A model generated the notes under the pieces. That model was not told the DNA's origin. It saw only the letters and a program-made list of their open reading frames with translations, and ran no database searches. A program made the position numbers and the translations under genes. 64,000 nucleotides of DNA from Desulfoferula mesophila (GTDB taxonomy: Bacteria > Desulfobacterota > Desulfarculia > Desulfarculales > Desulfarculaceae): NCBI RefSeq assembly GCF_037076455.1, contig NZ_AP028679.1:3177501-3241500 (forward strand), read 5' to 3'. Shown in pieces: positions 19,207 to 27,074 of the stretch; position 1 is the first letter of the stretch; each line of letters starts with the position of its first letter.

Positions 19207-20454
19207 TCAGTCCTGCACCAGGGCCTTGGCGGTGAGGTCGGAGAGGTACATAACCTCCACCCCCAGGCCGTAGTGCTCATTCAGGTCCGAAAGCTGGGTG
19301 TGGCAGTTTTCGCAGGCCGTGCACAACACCTCGGCTCCGGTGGCCTTTACCTGATCGGCTTTGACCTTGGCCGACTTCATGCGAAAGTCCTTTTCACCGA
19401 TGGCCACCAGGCCGCCGCCCCCGCCGCAGCACCAGTTGGCCTGGCGGTTGGGGGTCATCTCCACGAAGTGGTCGGTGAGGTGGTTCAGCACGTAGCGGGG
19501 CGGCTCGTAGATGCCCCCCTGGCGGGCGATCTGGCAGGGATCGTGATAGGTCACCTTGCCGGGCAGCTTGCTCTTGTCCAGCTTGATGCGCCCCTGCTCG
19601 ATGTAGCGGGCGATGAGCTCGGCAAAGGTGATGACCCCGAAGGGCTTCTCGCCGGTCATGTGCTTCATCACCCGGTAGGCGGTGCCGCACTCGCAGATCA
19701 CCACTTCCTTCACGTTGAGGCGCTTGGCCTCGTCGATGATGCGCCCGGCTATCTCCTTGGTCTTGGCCGGGTTGCCCACGAAGGCCCCGAAGTTCACCGC
19801 CTCGAAGTAGCTGAGCGACCATTTCTCCTTGGCGGCGTTCATGATGGCCGCCGCCGGGATTATGGAGTGCTTGCCGGCCAGGGCCACGTAGAGCACATTG
19901 GCGTCCTGCACGTCCAGGGGCACCACGTCCTCGCCGCCCTCGGAGCGCCAGCGCTCCAGAACCTCTTTTTCCAGGTTCTTGGCCGCGGCGGCGAAGTTGG
20001 TCTTGGTCTTTTCGATGGTCTTGCCCTTGGCGATGGACATGTCGGCCAACATGCTCAGAGCCTTGGGCTCCTGGTCGGCGGTGATGAGCATCATCTTGGC
20101 GATGCCCTGGATCACCCCGGTGTCGATGCCAAAGGGGCAATAGGTCATGCAGCGGCGGCAGCCGGTGCAGGTGTAGGCGGTCTCGTAGACCTTTTCCATC
20201 CAGAAGTCGCTGAGCTCCACCGCCTCGTTTAGCTTCTTGGCGATCTTGCCCTTCTTGAAATACTCCTCGTAGATGCGCCTGATGTTCTGGGCCCGGCCCA
20301 CGGCGGTGTAGCGCGTCTCAGGCGAGGAGGCGTAGGCGTGGCAGGCCTCGATGCACAGCCCGCAGCGCGAGCAGTTTTCCATATACATCTTGGCCGCTTG
20401 GCTCAGACGCTCGGAGAAGGTCTGGATGAGCTCTTGTTTCAGCTTGGCGTCCAT
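19207..20454 (-). CDS. HdrD/DsrK-like iron-sulfur oxidoreductase
   Basis: A 415-residue cytoplasmic iron-sulfur protein of the HdrD/GlpC/DsrK/TmcB type. Two [4Fe-4S] ferredoxin motifs are present: C28, C31, C34, C38 and C96, C99, C102, C106. The C-terminal half holds CCG-type cysteine-rich regions, one around CECGTAYR and one complete set (HDPCQ, WCCGGGG, CTACENC) of the kind that binds the noncubane cluster reducing heterodisulfides or thiols. It overlaps or abuts the membrane protein gene upstream (4 bases apart), and the pair resembles TmcBC or DsrMK cores that pass electrons between quinones and cytoplasmic thiol/persulfide carriers. It is the last gene of the sulfur operon. Confidence 0.85.
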   Translation of the reverse strand: MDAKLKQELIQTFSERLSQAAKMYMENCSRCGLCIEACHAYASSPETRYTAVGRAQNIRRIYEEYFKKGKIAKKLNEAVELSDFWMEKVYETAYTCTGCRRCMTYCPFGIDTGVIQGIAKMMLITADQEPKALSMLADMSIAKGKTIEKTKTNFAAAAKNLEKEVLERWRSEGGEDVVPLDVQDANVLYVALAGKHSIIPAAAIMNAAKEKWSLSYFEAVNFGAFVGNPAKTKEIAGRIIDEAKRLNVKEVVICECGTAYRVMKHMTGEKPFGVITFAELIARYIEQGRIKLDKSKLPGKVTYHDPCQIARQGGIYEPPRYVLNHLTDHFVEMTPNRQANWCCGGGGGLVAIGEKDFRMKSAKVKADQVKATGAEVLCTACENCHTQLSDLNEHYGLGVEVMYLSDLTAKALVQD

Positions 20455-20458
20455 GGCC

Positions 20459-21172
20459 TTAGCCCCTCCTCAGCTTGTTCAGGGGGATGGCGAAGAAGGT
20501 GTGCATGATCTTGCTGAAGGGCAGCACCATCAAGAACAGGTTGGCCAAAAATACGTGGGTCACCAGGACCACGTAGTGGCCGCCGTCGATGGTCTCCGCC
20601 GGGTCGGCCCAGGAGAAGTGGAACAGGCCGTTGAGGTACTCGCCAAAGTCCTGCTTGGTCAACACGAAGCCGTTCTCGCTCCAGGAGTTGGCCCAGGAGA
20701 TGATGTCTCCGGACATGGCCACGCAGAACAACAGGAACAACAGCAGGTAGTCGGCGGGCACCGAAACCTCCCGCAGGGGACCGGCGAAGCGGCGCAGCAG
20801 GAAGTAGAGGATGGCCGCGGTGACCACCACGCCCACCGCCCCGTTGCCGATCATGTTGGGGGAGTCTTCGGGGTAGATGTTGAACCAGGGCAGCATGTCC
20901 AGGTGGGATAGGATCAGCAGGGCCACGCCGATGTGGAACAGGATCAAAAAGACCCAGAAGGTGGGATTGTGACGGCGCACCGTGGGCATGCTCAGGGCGC
21001 CCCAAACCGCGCTGGGCACCGGGTGGTCCTTGTCCGGGAAGATCTTGAGGGTGAAGGGGTGGGCGGGTGTCTTGGCCACCCGCGCCACCTTCACCGCGAT
21101 CCCCACGAGACACCAGGCCACGGCCAGGTAGACCATCGGCACGGTGATTACATAGAAGATCTGGTTAACCAT
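20459..21172 (-). CDS. NarI/DsrM-like membrane quinone-interacting subunit
   Basis: A 237-residue inner-membrane protein with about five to six hydrophobic segments, resembling the gamma subunit of respiratory nitrate reductase and the DsrM/TmcC cytochromes b. Histidines within or next to hydrophobic helices (FHIGVALLILSHLD near residue 79-92, and FHFSW and THVF in the C-terminal half) are candidate haem ligands. It is expected to exchange electrons between the quinone pool and the HdrD-like subunit encoded next. It sits between tusA (19 bases) and the HdrD-like gene. Haem content is inference. Confidence 0.75.
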   Translation of the reverse strand: MVNQIFYVITVPMVYLAVAWCLVGIAVKVARVAKTPAHPFTLKIFPDKDHPVPSAVWGALSMPTVRRHNPTFWVFLILFHIGVALLILSHLDMLPWFNIYPEDSPNMIGNGAVGVVVTAAILYFLLRRFAGPLREVSVPADYLLLFLLFCVAMSGDIISWANSWSENGFVLTKQDFGEYLNGLFHFSWADPAETIDGGHYVVLVTHVFLANLFLMVLPFSKIMHTFFAIPLNKLRRG

Positions 21173-21191: not shown

Positions 21192-21428
21192 TTAGTTGTT
21201 GCGCTTGACGAAAATCTTGATGAACTCGCCCTGCTCGGTGTCCACCACCTCGTTGCCCGAGGTCTCGGCCCAAGCCGGGAAGTCGGAGAGAGAGCCGGGG
21301 TCGGTGGTGTGCACTTCGATGATGTCGCCCACGTTTACCGAGCCGATTTCCTGGCTCATCTTCACCACGGGCATGGGGCAGGGCAGACCTTTGAGATCCA
21401 GAATCTTGGCGGCTTGAATGTCGGACAT
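21192..21428 (-). CDS. tusA: TusA-family sulfur carrier protein
   Basis: A 78-residue TusA/SirA-family protein, a small cytoplasmic carrier that holds sulfur as a persulfide on one cysteine. The family signature LDLKGLPCPMPVV gives the active Cys at residue 17 followed by the CPxP pattern. In sulfur oxidisers and reducers TusA passes sulfur among rhodanese, DsrE and HdrABC-like or Dsr proteins. Its position between a DsrE-family gene and the NarI/HdrD pair supports a redox sulfur relay rather than tRNA thiolation. ATG 21428 has a GGAGAAAG site upstream. Confidence 0.93.
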   Translation of the reverse strand: MSDIQAAKILDLKGLPCPMPVVKMSQEIGSVNVGDIIEVHTTDPGSLSDFPAWAETSGNEVVDTEQGEFIKIFVKRNN

Positions 21429-21483: not shown

Positions 21484-22029
21484 TTAAATGAAAAGCTGGT
21501 TGGCGGACTTGCGCGAGTTGGCCAGGAAGGTGGCCACGCCCACGTATTCCATGTTGGGGTAGTCGATGATCTCCTCGTGCTTGAAGCCCATGAGGTCCAT
21601 GGACATCTCGCATACCTTGATCTCCACCCCTAGCTGGGCCGCGATCTCAAAAAGCTGGTCCAGGGTGGGGGCGTTCTTCTTCTTCATCAGGCTCTTGAGC
21701 ATGGCGGTGCCCATGCCGCCCATGTGCATCTGGCTCAGCTTCAGCGCGTTGCGGCCCTTGGGCAGCATCCAGCCGAACATCTTGGACATGAAGTCCTTGC
21801 CCCCCACCTGCTTCTTGGCGTCGCGCAAGGCGGCGGTGCCCCAGAAGGTGAAGAACATCACCACTTTCATGCCCATGGCCGCCGCGCCGGTGGCGATGAT
21901 CATGGCGGCCAGCATCTTGTCCAGGTCGCCGGAGAAGACCACCATGGACAGCTTGTTTTCCAGGGGCACCCCGGCCGGTTTGGGGGCGGGGGGCGTCTGT
22001 TGCATTTGGGTTGCGGCTTCGGCGCTCAT
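21484..22029 (-). CDS. DsrE/DsrF/DrsH-like (DsrE2-type) sulfur carrier
   Basis: A 181-residue protein of the DsrE/F/H-like superfamily, the longer DsrE2 (DrsE_2) type. After a Pro-rich 25-residue leader come LSMVVFSGDLDKMLAAMII and KVVMFFTFWG, the family's first strands, and the C-terminal VCEMSMDLMG around residue 145-154 carries the conserved cysteine thought to hold persulfide sulfur. The two hydrophobic stretches near residues 28-65 may be membrane-associated, as suggested for DsrE2. Its coupling with tusA is a recurrent pair in sulfur metabolism. It is the second gene of the operon, after arsR. Confidence 0.88.
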   Translation of the reverse strand: MSAEAATQMQQTPPAPKPAGVPLENKLSMVVFSGDLDKMLAAMIIATGAAAMGMKVVMFFTFWGTAALRDAKKQVGGKDFMSKMFGWMLPKGRNALKLSQMHMGGMGTAMLKSLMKKKNAPTLDQLFEIAAQLGVEIKVCEMSMDLMGFKHEEIIDYPNMEYVGVATFLANSRKSANQLFI

Positions 22030-22073: not shown

Positions 22074-22370
22074 TCAAGCGGCCTGGCAGCCATCCAGGCA
22101 GGCCAGGAGCTGGCGCAACTGGGGGTTGGCCAGGGTGTAGAACACCTCGCCCTCGCGGCGCTCGGTGCTCACCAGCCCGCTCATGCGCAGGATGCGCAGC
22201 TGCTGGGACACCGCGGCCGGGGTCCTTTCCAGACGCTCGGCCATGAAGATCACCCGCTGATCCGACTGGCACAACAGGGAGATGATCCTAAGGCGCACCG
22301 GGTGGGCAATGGCCTTGACCATCTCGGTGACGGCGTCGGCCCGTTCCTGGCTTTCGGCTAGGCTGCTCAT
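22074..22370 (-). CDS. ArsR/SmtB-family regulator heading the sulfur operon
   Basis: A 98-residue ArsR-type winged-helix repressor. AIAHPVRLRIISLLCQ near residue 16-31 and the recognition helix region RTPAAVSQQLRILRMSGLV near 50-68 are typical, followed by the wing TERREGEVFYTL. Cysteines at 30 and near the C terminus (CLDGC) could give thiol or persulfide sensing like SqrR/BigR, but the pattern is not identical. ATG 22370 is chosen because the protein then starts at the usual family position; an upstream in-frame start would add 36 unlikely residues. It lies about 50 bases downstream of the predicted sigma-54 start site. Confidence 0.88.
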   Translation of the reverse strand: MSSLAESQERADAVTEMVKAIAHPVRLRIISLLCQSDQRVIFMAERLERTPAAVSQQLRILRMSGLVSTERREGEVFYTLANPQLRQLLACLDGCQAA

Positions 22371-22429
22371 ATTGGTACTTTTGAAACTCCCAAGTTTTAA
22401 AGTTCTGCAACTCGTTGCCCAGCTACATG

Positions 22430-22445
22430 AGCAGGTATCGTGCCA
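22430..22445 (-). promoter_or_regulatory. Sigma-54 (-24/-12) promoter for the sulfur operon
   Basis: On the minus strand this reads TGGCACGATACCTGCT. It has the invariant GG and GC separated by ten bases and differs from the consensus TGGCACG-N4-TTGCT at one position. The predicted transcript starts near 22419 and runs into arsR-dsrE-tusA and the two redox genes. The adjacent divergent gene encodes a sigma-54 activator. Confidence 0.8.
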
Positions 22446-22522
22446 AATACCCGATTTGCGGGATATGATATTTAACATATTGATATAGTTAATATTTAAA
22501 ATTTATATAAATCGCTTGCGCA

Positions 22523-22531: not shown

Positions 22532-22581
22532 GTCTAAGTAGACTATTAATTGTTTAGACACTGTTTAAACGGTAGGTAGAC
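22532..22581. promoter_or_regulatory. TAGAC repeat cluster, candidate activator-binding sites
   Basis: A perfect inverted repeat GTCTA-AG-TAGAC lies at 22532-22543, further TAGAC copies at 22555-22559 and 22577-22581, and the palindrome GTTTAAAC at 22563-22570. They sit about 90-140 bases upstream of the sigma-54 promoter, the usual distance for an enhancer, and also cover the activator gene's own start and leader, which would allow autorepression. Confidence 0.5.
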
Positions 22582-23952
22582 ATGGACGTGGACATCGCTT
22601 CCCACTGGGGCACCGTGGCCGACACCCTGCACGACGTGGTTTTGGTGGTGGATCCCCAAGGGCGCATCGTGCGCATCAACCGGGCCGGCGAAGAGCTCAC
22701 CGGTTATCGCAACGACCAACTGGCCGGCCAATCTTGCCGGGTGCTCAACTGCACCGGCTGCAAGATCATCGGTCAGGGCAGCGGGGTGGATTACTGCGGC
22801 CTGTTCCGGGCCGGGGAGGTCCGCTCCAAGCGCTGCACCATCACCAACCGGGCGGGCGAGCCGGTGGTGGTGCTCAAGCGGGCCAGCGTGCTCAAGGACG
22901 AGCAAGGCAACATCACCGGCGCGGTGGAGACCCTCACCGACCTCACCGAGCTCCATGCCAAGGAGCGCGAGATCACCCAGCTGCGCCGCAGCTTGCGCTC
23001 CGAGGACGGCTTCGAGGGCCTCGTCGGCAGCTCCCCGGCCATGACCAGCCTGTACCGCCTCATCGACACCGTGGCCCAGTCCGACTACCCGGTGCTGATC
23101 CAGGGGGCCAGCGGCACGGGCAAGGAGCTGGCCGCCCTGGCCATCCACCGCCGGGGGCCCCGGGCCGACAAGCCCTACGTGAAGGTGAACTGCGCGGCCC
23201 TGAACCCCAACCTCTTGGAGAGCGAGCTTTTCGGCCACGTGAAGGGCTCCTTCACCGGGGCGGACCGCGACCGGGTGGGCCGCTTCGAGGCGGCCGAGGG
23301 CGGGGACATCCTCCTGGATGAGATCGGCGAGATTCCCCCGGCCACCCAGATCAAGCTGCTCAGGGTGTTGCAGGAAAAGGAGATCGAGCGGGTGGGCGAA
23401 AACCGCCCCCGCCGGGTGAACGTGCGCATCCTGGCCGCCACCAACCGCGACCTGCCCGAGCTGGTGCGCCGGGGCGCCTTCAGGGAAGACCTGTACTACC
23501 GCCTGGACGTGGTGCCGGTGCAGATGCCCACCCTGGCCGAGCGCCGGGAAGACCTGCCGCTGTTGGTGGAGCACTTCATGGCCCAGGCCGCGGCCAAGTC
23601 GGGCAAGGAGATCACCGGCATGTCCCCGGAGGCCTTCGGCCTGCTGGAGGCCTACCCCTGGCCGGGCAACGTGCGCGAGCTGCGCCACGCGGTGGAATAC
23701 GCCTGCGTGCTCTGCCCCGGCGGCTTGATAACCGCCGAATACCTACCGCCCAAGCTGCGCCAAGCGGAGCCCGCCGCGCCCCCGGCCGCCGGGCCGGCCG
23801 GCAAGCGCCACACCCAGCGCCAAGAGCTGCTCGAGGCCCTGCGCCGGGCCGGAGGCAACAAGAGCAAGGCCGCCGAAATGCTGGGCGTGTGCCGGGCCAC
23901 GGTGTGGAACCGCATCAACCGCCTGGGCATCGACTGCGAGCGCGACCTGTAG
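22582..23952 (+). CDS. Sigma-54-dependent activator with Cys-containing PAS domain
   Basis: A 456-residue enhancer-binding protein. Residues 8-125 form a PAS domain that carries five cysteines (C52, C57, C60, C72, C85), suggesting a metal or redox sensor. The AAA+ domain has Walker A GASGTGKE at 175-182, the sigma-54 contact loop GSFTGA at 222-227 (usual GAFTGA), and Walker B GGDILLDE at 240-247. The C-terminal Fis-type helix-turn-helix (NKSKAAEMLGVCRATVWNRI) lies near 424-445. The gene is divergent from the arsR-dsrE-tusA operon, whose promoter is sigma-54 type, so that operon is its likely target. Confidence 0.95.
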   Translation: MDVDIASHWGTVADTLHDVVLVVDPQGRIVRINRAGEELTGYRNDQLAGQSCRVLNCTGCKIIGQGSGVDYCGLFRAGEVRSKRCTITNRAGEPVVVLKRASVLKDEQGNITGAVETLTDLTELHAKEREITQLRRSLRSEDGFEGLVGSSPAMTSLYRLIDTVAQSDYPVLIQGASGTGKELAALAIHRRGPRADKPYVKVNCAALNPNLLESELFGHVKGSFTGADRDRVGRFEAAEGGDILLDEIGEIPPATQIKLLRVLQEKEIERVGENRPRRVNVRILAATNRDLPELVRRGAFREDLYYRLDVVPVQMPTLAERREDLPLLVEHFMAQAAAKSGKEITGMSPEAFGLLEAYPWPGNVRELRHAVEYACVLCPGGLITAEYLPPKLRQAEPAAPPAAGPAGKRHTQRQELLEALRRAGGNKSKAAEMLGVCRATVWNRINRLGIDCERDL

Positions 23953-24061: not shown

Positions 24062-25504
24062 GTGAACCCTTACGCCCTGCCCTTTTTGATGTCCTTCGTG
24101 CCCCTAATCCTGCTGGGGCTGGCCATAATTCTGCAAAACCCCCGCAACCGCCTTTACCAGATCGTTTGTGCCTTTTGCATAGGCAACGCCCTGGTGGCGG
24201 GCGCCGGGGGCATGCTGCACCTGGCCGCCAGCCGGGAACAGGCCGTATTTTGGAACCGCCTGCCCTATCTGCTCAACTGCGCCACCTACTGGCTCTTTCT
24301 GCAGTACACCCTGATCATCTCCGGCGGCGAGGCTCGCATGGGCGAGCGCTTCCTCTTTATGCCCATCAGGCTGCACTACTGGCTCACCATAGGCGTCCTG
24401 GCCCTGGTCTTCGGCCTGGTGGGCCTCAGCGACTTGGTCGTGGCCGCCCCGGTCTACAACCCCGTCACCGGCTGGGAGCACGGCTATGGCCCCCTCCACC
24501 GGGAGATCATTTTCGCCAACGTCTATCTGCTGGTATTGCTGCTGTTCATTTTGCAGCGCGGCATCAAGACCAGCCCCGACCCCATCCTGCGCCGGGCGCG
24601 CATCATCGCCACGGCCGCCATCGGCGTGGCTCAATCCTGGGTAATCGTCACCGGCCTGGTTCTTCCCGATTTTTTCGGCGTGCCCACCCATAGCTTCGCC
24701 GCCATAGCCTGGCTGGTGCTGTGTTTCCTGCTCATCTACGGCCTCATGCGCCAGCAATGGGAGACCATCCACGAATTCAGCGCCAACCTGGAAGAAAAGG
24801 TGGCCATGCGCACCGCGGAGCTGGCCCGGGCCAAGAGCAACCTCGAGGAGGTGCAGGAGCAGATATCCAAATACCTGGACCCCCACGTGGTGGAGAAGAT
24901 CTTCTCTGGGGAGCTCAGCGCAGAGCTCACCTCCCGGCGGGCCCGCCTTACCATGTTCTTTTCCGACATCAAGGATTTCACCCAGTTCACCGACGCCTCC
25001 GACCCCGAAGAGGTGGCCCGCTTGCTCAACGAGTACCTGGGCGAGATGGCGACGATCGTACGGCGCTGGGGCGGCACCATCCCCCAGTTCACCGGCGATT
25101 CCATCTACGCCATATTCGGGGCCCCGGACAGCCGGGGGGCGCGGGAAGACGCCCTGGCCGCCGTACGCATGGCCCTGGAGATGCAAAGCCACATGCAACA
25201 CCTCCGCCGCAAATGGTGGAACGAGGGCATACAGTTCCCGTTCCAGATTCGCTGCGGCATCCACTCGGGCATGGCCAACGTGGGCAACTGCGGGTCCGAG
25301 GGTTTCATGGAGTTCTCGGCCATAGGATTGAACGTAAACCTCGCCTCCCGCCTGGAGCATATCTGCCGGCCGGGCCAAATCTACGTTTCCCACGCCACCT
25401 GGGCCCTGGTTAAGGACGAGATACCCTGCGAGGAAGTCGGCGCCATCGAGGTCAAGGGGTTCCACTACCCCATTCAGGTCTATAGGGTTATGCCCCGCCC
25501 CTAG
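24062..25504 (+). CDS. Class III nucleotidyl cyclase with N-terminal membrane domain
   Basis: A 480-residue protein with about seven hydrophobic helices in residues 1-230 (7TM sensor-like), a short coiled coil near 235-275, and a class III adenylate/guanylate cyclase domain near 285-478. The metal-binding FFSDIKDFT and GDSIYAIFGAP segments and the transition-state Asn/Arg in NVNLASRLE are present. The residue that recognises adenine, usually Lys in KFxGD, is Gln here (PQFTGD), so nucleotide preference is uncertain. Translation begins at GTG 24062 after GAGGT. It stands between the activator and the transporter gene. The input signal is unknown. Confidence 0.87.
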   Translation: MNPYALPFLMSFVPLILLGLAIILQNPRNRLYQIVCAFCIGNALVAGAGGMLHLAASREQAVFWNRLPYLLNCATYWLFLQYTLIISGGEARMGERFLFMPIRLHYWLTIGVLALVFGLVGLSDLVVAAPVYNPVTGWEHGYGPLHREIIFANVYLLVLLLFILQRGIKTSPDPILRRARIIATAAIGVAQSWVIVTGLVLPDFFGVPTHSFAAIAWLVLCFLLIYGLMRQQWETIHEFSANLEEKVAMRTAELARAKSNLEEVQEQISKYLDPHVVEKIFSGELSAELTSRRARLTMFFSDIKDFTQFTDASDPEEVARLLNEYLGEMATIVRRWGGTIPQFTGDSIYAIFGAPDSRGAREDALAAVRMALEMQSHMQHLRRKWWNEGIQFPFQIRCGIHSGMANVGNCGSEGFMEFSAIGLNVNLASRLEHICRPGQIYVSHATWALVKDEIPCEEVGAIEVKGFHYPIQVYRVMPRP

Positions 25505-25613
25505 CGAGTACGGGCTGCACTATGACTATCGCCCGGCCGTGTCCTATAATGACCGGGGCGACCAATCAAGCGCGGCGCCCGTCCCAGGGGCGCGTCGAGG
25601 CACGAGGAGGAGC

Positions 25614-27074
25614 ATGAGAGAGCAATGGAACTCGCGCACCGGCTTTGTCTTGGCCGCGGTGGGCTCGGCCGTGGGGCTGGGCAACATCTGGCGCTTTCCC
25701 TACATGGCCTATGAAAACGGGGGCGGGGCCTTTCTCATCCCCTATTTTTTCGCCATGCTCACCGCCGGAGTTCCCTTCCTCATCATGGAGTTCGCCCTGG
25801 GCCATCGCTACAAGAGCGCGGCTCCGCTGACCTTCCACGCCATCAAGGCCCGTTGGGAGGGCCTGGGCTGGTGGCAGGTTCTGGTGTGCCTGGTCATCTC
25901 CTTTTACTACGTGGTGATCCTGGGCTGGACGGTTTGCTACTTTTTCCTCAGCTTCCACCAGGGCTGGGGCGGCGCCCCCTCGGACTACTTTTTCAAGGAC
26001 TTCCTGCAGCTGACCAAGAGCCCCCTGGACCCCGGCGGGATGCGTTGGCCTATTGTGGCGGCCACGGTGTTTTGTTGGCTGGTCTCCTGGGTGGTGCTGT
26101 GGCGCGGGGTCAACGCGGGCATAGAGCGGGTCAACAAGGTCTTCATGCCCGTGCTCTTCGTCCTGGTGCTGGTGCTGCTGGCCAGGGCCCTTACCCTGCC
26201 CGGCGCGGCCGACGGCCTGAACTGGCTCTTCGCGCCGGACTTCTCCAACCTGTGGAACTACAAGGTCTGGACCGCCGCCTACGGCCAGATTTTCTTCACC
26301 CTGTCCATAGGCTTCGGCATCATGATCGCCTACTCCAGCTATCTGCCCGACGACGCCGACATCACCAACAACGGCTTCATCACCGTGTTCCTCAACTGCG
26401 GCTTCAGCCTGTTGGCCGGCACCATGGTCTTCGGGGTGCTGGGCTTCATGGCCGCCCAGCAGGGGGTGCCCATCAAGGAAGTGGTCTCCCAGGGCGTGGG
26501 CCTGGCCTTTGCCACCATCCCGGCGGCCCTGAACATGATGCCCGCCGCCGGGGTGTTCGGAGTGGTGTTTTTCCTGGCCCTGCTCTTTGCCGGCTTTTCC
26601 AGCTTTTTGTCCATCGTGGAGGCCTGCGTGGCCCCGCTCATGGAAAAGCTGGGCTGGAGCCGCACCAAGGCGGTAAGCGTGTTGTGCGGCCTGGGCCTGG
26701 TGGGCAGCCTGCCCTTTTCCACCGGCGGCGGGCTGCTGCTGTTGGATTTGGTGGATCACTTCATCAACAACTACGGCATCGTCTTCGGCGGCCTGGCCGA
26801 GATCCTTATGATCGCCTGGCTGGGCCGGCTGCCCGAGATGCGCCGGTACGTGAACCAGGTGTCCGACTTTCCCTTGGGCTCCTGGTGGTCCGTTTGCCTC
26901 AAGGTGGTAACCCCGCTTACCCTGGGGGTGATGGCCATCTCCAACCTGGTGGGCGATCTGGCCCAACCATACAGCGGCTATCCCCTCACCGCGCTCGTCG
27001 CTTTCGGGTGGGTCTTGATGGCCCTCATGGGCCTGGCCGCCTGGTGGCTGGCCACCAAACGCTGGGCCTACTAG
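25614..27074 (+). CDS. Sodium-dependent transporter, NSS/SNF family
   Basis: A 486-residue neurotransmitter:sodium-symporter-family protein with about 12 hydrophobic helices; bacterial members import amino acids with Na+. TM1 shows the family signature GSAVGLGNIWRFPYMAYENG at residues about 16-35, with the unwound region that binds substrate and Na+. The second repeat and SFLSIVEACVAPLME near 330-344 match TM8. ATG 25614 follows GAGGAGGA and starts at the usual family position; in-frame codons upstream are leader. A 34-codon MetS-like gene follows after 15 bases, which suggests a MetP/MetS-type methionine or alanine carrier. Confidence 0.92.
   Translation: MREQWNSRTGFVLAAVGSAVGLGNIWRFPYMAYENGGGAFLIPYFFAMLTAGVPFLIMEFALGHRYKSAAPLTFHAIKARWEGLGWWQVLVCLVISFYYVVILGWTVCYFFLSFHQGWGGAPSDYFFKDFLQLTKSPLDPGGMRWPIVAATVFCWLVSWVVLWRGVNAGIERVNKVFMPVLFVLVLVLLARALTLPGAADGLNWLFAPDFSNLWNYKVWTAAYGQIFFTLSIGFGIMIAYSSYLPDDADITNNGFITVFLNCGFSLLAGTMVFGVLGFMAAQQGVPIKEVVSQGVGLAFATIPAALNMMPAAGVFGVVFFLALLFAGFSSFLSIVEACVAPLMEKLGWSRTKAVSVLCGLGLVGSLPFSTGGGLLLLDLVDHFINNYGIVFGGLAEILMIAWLGRLPEMRRYVNQVSDFPLGSWWSVCLKVVTPLTLGVMAISNLVGDLAQPYSGYPLTALVAFGWVLMALMGLAAWWLATKRWAY

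Follow-up and report, generated by a model that had tools for sequence, protein, structure and literature searches.

FisR, a sigma-54 activator of sulfide-oxidation genes, is a precedent for sulfane-sulfur sensing by activators of this class. In Cupriavidus pinatubonensis, this is achieved by three conserved cysteines (PMC9774590, PMC7315123, PMC12170894), and the FisR of Acinetobacter baumannii is encoded divergently from its sigma-54 operon (PMC9774590, PMC7315123). The precedent is not uniform, because the Cupriavidus cysteines are missing from the FisR of A. baumannii (PMC7315123). In the latter species, FisR and BigR sense persulfide independently of each other (PMC7315123). Kazakov et al. 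predicted that a divergent activator controls ohc through sigma-54 (PMC4641369), and sulfur disproportionators and cable bacteria have the YTD cluster, or DsrEFH type II (PMC13293266, PMC12998232).

Here, we describe a locus in a 64 000 nt stretch of the Desulfoferula mesophila genome (hereafter the window), in which the gene for a one-component sigma-54 activator with conserved N-terminal cysteines is divergent to a sulfur operon whose promoter is of the sigma-54 type. In these respects the activator resembles FisR, to which it is likened by description; FisR sequence was sought in a plasmid collection, which returned only unrelated activators. The two differ in their targets: the family of the window activator faces TusA/DsrE/Hdr, Psr/Phs and rhodanese operons, and the window operon contains no gene for SQR or persulfide dioxygenase, the genes that mark a FisR target. 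As in A. baumannii, sulfur metabolism in one cell is under both a sigma-54 activator and a repressor of the ArsR type, but FisR and BigR act on separate operons, whereas in the window both regulators appear to act at one promoter region.

The divergent arrangement is shared with DVU3142-ohcBAC and other one-component Desulfovibrio regulons (PMC4641369). Several members of the family described below face Ohc-like cytochrome genes, so DVU3142 may itself belong to it, although the published account of DVU3142 makes no mention of DsrE, rhodanese or cysteines (PMC4641369). The YTD cluster and the window operon both encode TusA and DsrE-type sulfur carriers; unlike the YTD cluster, the window operon has no yedE beside tusA and dsrE, and has DsrE2 together with a NarI/HdrD pair. 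A search of mainly open-access literature turned up no account of a Cys-PAS sigma-54 family tied to tusA, nor of a sigma-54 activator and ArsR both controlling one sulfur operon. The tie between a cysteine-PAS family and TusA operons is apparently undescribed.

A sigma-54 promoter precedes a sulfur-carrier operon

The host genome is a single contig of 4.48 Mb with one rpoN and 42 sigma-54 activators, and its near relatives are Desulfarculaceae. The host is probably a sulfate reducer, since the genome carries dsrA and dsrC. About 3 kb from dsrAB lies a large activator frame of 1025 aa (G000:C1:162621-168471), which could encode a dsr regulator. Within the window, Pfam and NCBIfam searches bore out the gene order arsR-dsrE2-tusA-narI-like-hdrD-like that had been proposed in a sequence-only reading of this DNA (Table 1). 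Membership of the last two products in DsrMK was rejected: scores against the NCBIfam models were 237 bits for DsrK (cut-off 400) and 39 bits for DsrM (cut-off 300), so the pair is related to DsrMK without belonging to it.

Table 1. Features of the locus and of related loci (window positions unless a locus is named)
Feature	Position	Strand	Remarks
HdrD/DsrK-like iron-sulfur CCG-domain subunit	19207..20454	minus	Pfam/NCBIfam
NarI/DsrM-like membrane cytochrome b subunit	20459..21172	minus	Pfam/NCBIfam
tusA, sulfur carrier	21192..21428	minus	CPMP motif
dsrE2-like sulfur-carrier protein	21484..22029	minus	DrsE_2, 166 bits
arsR, ArsR/SmtB repressor	22074..22370	minus	conserved Cys34, Cys91, Cys95
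Candidate ArsR operator AACTTTAAAACTTGGGAGTTTCAAAAGT	22404-22377	minus	imperfect palindrome downstream of the predicted start; putative
Predicted transcription start of the operon	22419	minus	12 nt past the C of the -12 element; same position as in the sequence-only reading
-24/-12 sigma-54 promoter TGGCACGATACCTGCT	22445-22430	minus	top site in the window; kept in five genomes of the genus
IHF-consensus-like TATCAATATGTTA	22473..22485	minus	between candidate activator site and promoter; weak
Candidate upstream activator site GTTTAAACAGTGTCTAAAC	22552..22570	minus	family-wide GTTAA/TTAAC repeats at this place
Divergent sigma-54 activator	22582..23952	plus	Cys-PAS domain, AAA+ with GSFTGA, Fis HTH
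YTD-like clusters	L117:7240-13391; L130:1-6055		
Degenerate TusA-like first genes (examples)	L098:9734-9997; L128; L134; L144; L148		

The near-consensus sigma-54 site claimed in the earlier reading was upheld: TGGCACGATACCTGCT has the correct GG-N10-GC spacing and departs from TGGCAC-N5-TTGCW by a single mismatch, a C for T. It ends 59 nt before the arsR ATG (22370), matching the distance of about 60 bases first reported, and the start of transcription is predicted near 22419 on this basis. A loose pattern allowing three mismatches was uninformative (253 matches vs 321 expected). Scored with a weight matrix, TGGCACGATACCTGCT reached 17.2 bits and the runner-up in the 64-kb window 12.0 bits, values that are approximate because the matrix was drawn up after the published consensus; the ranking and conservation of the site are independent of matrix details. 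None of 5000 dinucleotide shuffles of the intergenic region reached 17.2 bits; when the whole window was shuffled 200 times, five of the shuffles did so. Across the 4.48 Mb genome, TGGCACGNNNNYTGCW occurred seven times compared with once for the reversed control, and an activator gene lay close by at three of the six other TGGCACGNNNNYTGCW loci.

Five genomes of the genus carry the operon (the window; L008/L089; L094; L009/L090; L091). In all five, the site is held at -75 to -78 from arsR, whilst the spacer and flanks have diverged. These comparisons confirm at the sequence level that the sigma-54 promoter in front of the sulfur-carrier operon is real and conserved. The IHF-like TATCAATATGTTA is not kept in the aligned relatives, and was graded weak for that reason.

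Besides Desulfobacterota, MAGs labelled Spirochaetes, Firmicutes and others contain the dsrE2-tusA-narI-hdrD operon. A regulator is absent from many copies, and about ten have arsR in front; the combination with an activator and a sigma-54 promoter was seen only in the window genus. The search for the same promoter before arsR-dsrE2-tusA in other Desulfobacterota, suggested by the sequence-only reading, thus succeeded for the five genomes of the genus and failed for other lineages with arsR: at arsR-only loci, no -24/-12 site of at least 12 bits was found within 450 bp upstream, the best being 11.8 bits (L025). As arsR-bearing lineages outside the genus have no sigma-54 site, ArsR control looks older, and we infer that the sigma-54 layer was added in the window genus.

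The divergent activator has a cysteine-rich PAS domain

The divergent gene does encode a sigma-54 activator, as previously suggested. The product combines the AAA+ domain (PF00158, 229 bits), GAFTGA loop (here GSFTGA) and Fis HTH (HTH_8) that characterize bacterial enhancer-binding proteins. An AlphaFold model of residues 1-152 (mean pLDDT 86) shows a PAS fold from which a long helix leads into the AAA+ domain, and its Foldseek neighbours were PAS/LOV domains and the NifL-NifA complex. The model places Cys52, 57, 60 and 72 in or beside the alphaE-alphaF stretch and Cys85 in betaC; loop 61-70 is among its least certain parts. Cys52, Cys60 and Cys72 were present in 65/65 discovery proteins (see below), Cys85 in 94% and Cys57 in 74%, counts into which some selection is built because the search profile included the cysteines. 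The same three residues were found in 42, 40 and 42 of the 42 hold-out activators, respectively, and account for three of the seven invariant columns in an alignment of 55 sequences.

Four paralogues with the same Cys-PAS architecture, at 51-60% identity, are encoded in the same genome. Three of them have an outward -24/-12 site and stand head-to-head with a rhodanese operon (L097), a tusA-tusA-flpD-hdrA-hdrA-dsrE-hdrC-like operon (L098) or an iron-sulfur/NrfD/multihaem cytochrome operon (L100). In the fourth (L099), the -24/-12 site lies behind the activator gene and before an iron-sulfur protein gene. An inward sigma-54 site of the type TGGCAGG...TTTGCT (14.3-14.7 bits) faces the activator gene at L097:7709 (minus), L106 and L107, and its presence in all three species suggests auto-activation. 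Behind the window activator gene lie genes for a protein that combines a 7TM region with a guanylate/adenylate cyclase domain (24062-25504) and, after it, a neurotransmitter-type sodium symporter (25539-27074).

Cys-PAS activators adjoin sulfur operons across Desulfobacterota

A profile of the N-terminal domain matched 50/197 sampled Desulfobacterota genomes at a loose cut-off. For the discovery set, 60 further loci were fetched, giving 65 proteins, of which 64 members entered the architecture counts; a hold-out set of 40 new loci with 42 activators was analysed at the same thresholds. Most discovery members (59/64) were head-to-head with a divergent gene. Sites of the -24/-12 type scoring at least 12 bits pointed outward from the activator in 36/59 of these intergenic regions and inward in 4/59 of the same DNA, and in the hold-out set the corresponding figures were 29/37 and 0/37 divergent members. 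Amongst other activators of the same or sampled genomes, only one of 17 divergent ones had an outward site.

Counted with a TusA profile built from loci that had not been picked via the activator, tusA lay within 4.5 kb of 25/64 members and of 0/50 control activators (Fisher p = 6e-8, an optimistic value because related loci are not fully independent). The 25 linked loci span about 13 genera, and the hold-out set gave 18/42. Cys-PAS sigma-54 activators appear to form an undescribed, Desulfobacterota-wide family beside sulfur-handling operons. Members of a deeper branch of the family (L155-L161; E 1e-29 to 1e-37) often have thioredoxin-like genes, rather than tusA, as their neighbours.

Target operons with tusA contain either flpD, hdrA and CCG genes or Psr/Phs-like iron-sulfur, NrfD and molybdopterin genes. 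Other targets encode rhodanese pairs, a CoA-disulfide-reductase-like protein with a rhodanese domain, DsrE, TauE-like proteins or Ohc-like cytochromes. The first gene is TusA-like in 22 loci, 18 of which have no CPxP-type active-site cysteine motif; amongst ten of these small, degenerate genes tested, eight scored above the PF01206 cut-off. Six loci (L099, L104, L108, L111, L112 and L118) face Fur-FeoA-FeoB or a TusA-like gene without an outward site of at least 12 bits, and have a strong -24/-12 site (CGGCACG...TTGCT type) behind the activator gene.

At L117 and L130, the divergent operon encodes a DUF3373 porin-like protein, YedE (Sulf_transp), TusA, small DsrE-type proteins and cytochromes. 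At L117, yedE lies next to tusA and dsrE, the arrangement that defines the YTD cluster; of four small proteins tested, only one scores as DsrE in Pfam. Both clusters face a Cys-PAS activator with outward sigma-54 sites, that at L117 being TGGCACAAACCTTGCT (17.7 bits). The activator at L117 and L130 is a candidate regulator of this disproportionation marker.

The family also shares a candidate upstream activator site. Pairs of the form GTTAA-N0-8-TTAAC were found in 26/51 intergenic regions, compared with 0.4 expected from shuffles and 0/37 control regions, although the motif was discovered in the same data as this count; GTTAA/TTAAC pairs were seen in 15/37 regions of the hold-out set. In the window, GTTTAAACAGTGTCTAAAC is a degenerate variant of the repeat, its centre preceding the predicted start by ~142 bp and the activator ATG by ~20 bp. 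Orthologues carry the GTTAA-N5-TTAAC type, with GTTAAATTGTTTAAC at L102 and GTTAAATCTCTTAAC at L103. Measured from the activator ATG, repeat midpoints mostly lie 14-55 bp upstream; measured from the predicted start, they lie 120-182 bp upstream in most loci. This position is normal for an activator site, and would also permit self-repression of the activator. A genome-wide exact search for spaced GTTAAC pairs was too specific to be useful (7/198 genomes).

The ArsR repressor has its own conserved cysteines

Amongst proteins of solved structure, those closest to the window ArsR are the persulfide sensors SqrR and BigR. Together with SoxR and sHdrR, these proteins resemble the window ArsR in fold, in position upstream of sulfur-transfer genes and in having conserved cysteines. 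Membership in the SqrR/BigR group was nevertheless rejected, on the grounds that the protein scores 52 bits against NCBIfam BigR (cut-off 155) and has its cysteines at other positions: Cys34, Cys91 and Cys95 are present in 13/14 ArsRs that precede dsrE2 (the exception being the remote L017), and in the alignment the first reactive cysteine of SqrR is matched by Ser31, which lies one turn of helix away from Cys34.

Palindromes occur in the leader of the operon. In addition to the imperfect AACTTTAAAACTTGGGAGTTTCAAAAGT of the window, sister species have the perfect palindrome ATGCAAAA(C/G)TTTGCAT at the equivalent place, the sister clade has ATGCAAAACTTTGCAT, and other lineages have CTATAT...ATATAG types. 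These palindromes may be ArsR operators, situated downstream of the start.

The sequence-only reading had proposed that two signals are integrated through double control. A sigma-54 promoter, a neighbouring activator and ArsR do come together at one sulfur-relay operon, but the integration of two different signals goes further than the sequence does: both regulators carry conserved cysteines and may, therefore, read the same kind of signal, sulfane sulfur. That reading also knew of no described system with this layout. The exact layout is indeed local to the genus, but the regulator type is general, given that the activator belongs to a phylum-wide Cys-PAS family tied to many sulfur operons.

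Proposed mechanism and alternative explanations

We consider it probable that the window activator is a sigma-54 activator of the FisR kind, which responds to sulfane sulfur through its thiols and has here been added on top of an ArsR repressor. The one-component activator would sense through the PAS cysteine set Cys52, 60, 72, 85 and, usually, 57. Cytoplasmic sulfane sulfur (polysulfide or persulfide) would modify these thiols and release the AAA+ domain; by analogy with the three cysteines of Cupriavidus FisR, we lean slightly towards such a reaction of the PAS thiols. From the repeat ~140 bp upstream of the start, the activator would then open the sigma-54 holoenzyme at the promoter. DsrE2 and TusA would carry the sulfur in persulfide form, and the NarI/HdrD pair, if it works like DsrMK, would link the quinone pool to carrier-bound sulfur by electron exchange. 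ArsR, with its own thiols, may bind between the start and the gene and block the operon transcript for as long as these thiols are unmodified, the signal that lifts the block being the same or a related one, so that the operon would act like an AND gate. In this scheme, the wiring of activator to promoter is well supported by comparison of the loci; the signal is what we infer.

The same wiring could serve another signal. The cysteines could instead hold a metal or an iron-sulfur cluster, and with a bound cluster or zinc the PAS domain would sense redox, oxygen or NO. Cluster-bearing, cysteine-rich PAS sensors are known, the four to five cysteines fall in the alphaE-alphaF loop and betaC, which is the usual cofactor region of PAS domains, and some family relatives adjoin FeoAB or multihaem cytochromes. 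The Ohc-like cytochrome, TauE-like and MetV-like targets are only loosely tied to sulfane sulfur, which also speaks against our preferred reading. However, most targets are sulfur carriers, rhodaneses, DsrE or Psr/Phs-like operons, and the lack of Cys57 in 26% of members would leave varied ligand sets; we regard a cofactor as unlikely, yet worth serious consideration. Far less room is left for a flavin-binding LOV photosensor. LOV domains are amongst the top structural neighbours, Cys52 lies where the reactive LOV cysteine does, and GQSCRVLN of the activator resembles the LOV motif. The family consensus, GxxCxxLxC, does not keep the other residues of that motif, a glutamate occupies the usual glutamine position near the domain end, and four further cysteines would be left unexplained. 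We rejected the photosensor on the failure to keep the remaining motif residues, and give it hardly any credence.

The wiring itself could also differ. The promoter might be real and yet be served mainly by one of the other 41 activators, or by several paralogues in cross-talk, given 42 activators in the genome, four Cys-PAS paralogues at 51-60% identity and an upstream-site type common to the family. Against this, activator and promoter occur together in 5/5 operon-bearing genomes of the genus, and operon loci without the activator are also without the promoter; we judge this explanation improbable. Alternatively, ArsR and a sigma-70 promoter could run the operon, the -24/-12 match being fortuitous. 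Relatives outside the genus do have ArsR and no sigma-54 site, and there is a weak sigma-70-like match at 22492-22465, but a chance match is very hard to reconcile with the score of 17.2 vs 12.0 bits, the 0/5000 shuffles, the conservation across diverged flanks and the same pattern in about 100 family loci. It is, thus, well supported by these comparisons that the neighbouring activator acts on the promoter.

Biological significance

Little is known about how anaerobic sulfur bacteria detect zero-valent sulfur and decide whether to reduce sulfate, reduce sulfur or disproportionate. Three invariant cysteines, a DNA site of the activator's own and an adjoining promoter provide a direct handle on sulfane-sulfur sensing. 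We see an even chance that the Cys-PAS family is a common sulfane-sulfur switch for TusA relay, polysulfide/thiosulfate-reductase and YTD operons across sulfate reducers and disproportionators, which in one genus has been stacked on an older ArsR. If this is true, sulfane-sulfur-responsive operons can be predicted from the presence of the family, amongst them the YTD cluster, a proposed marker of disproportionation.
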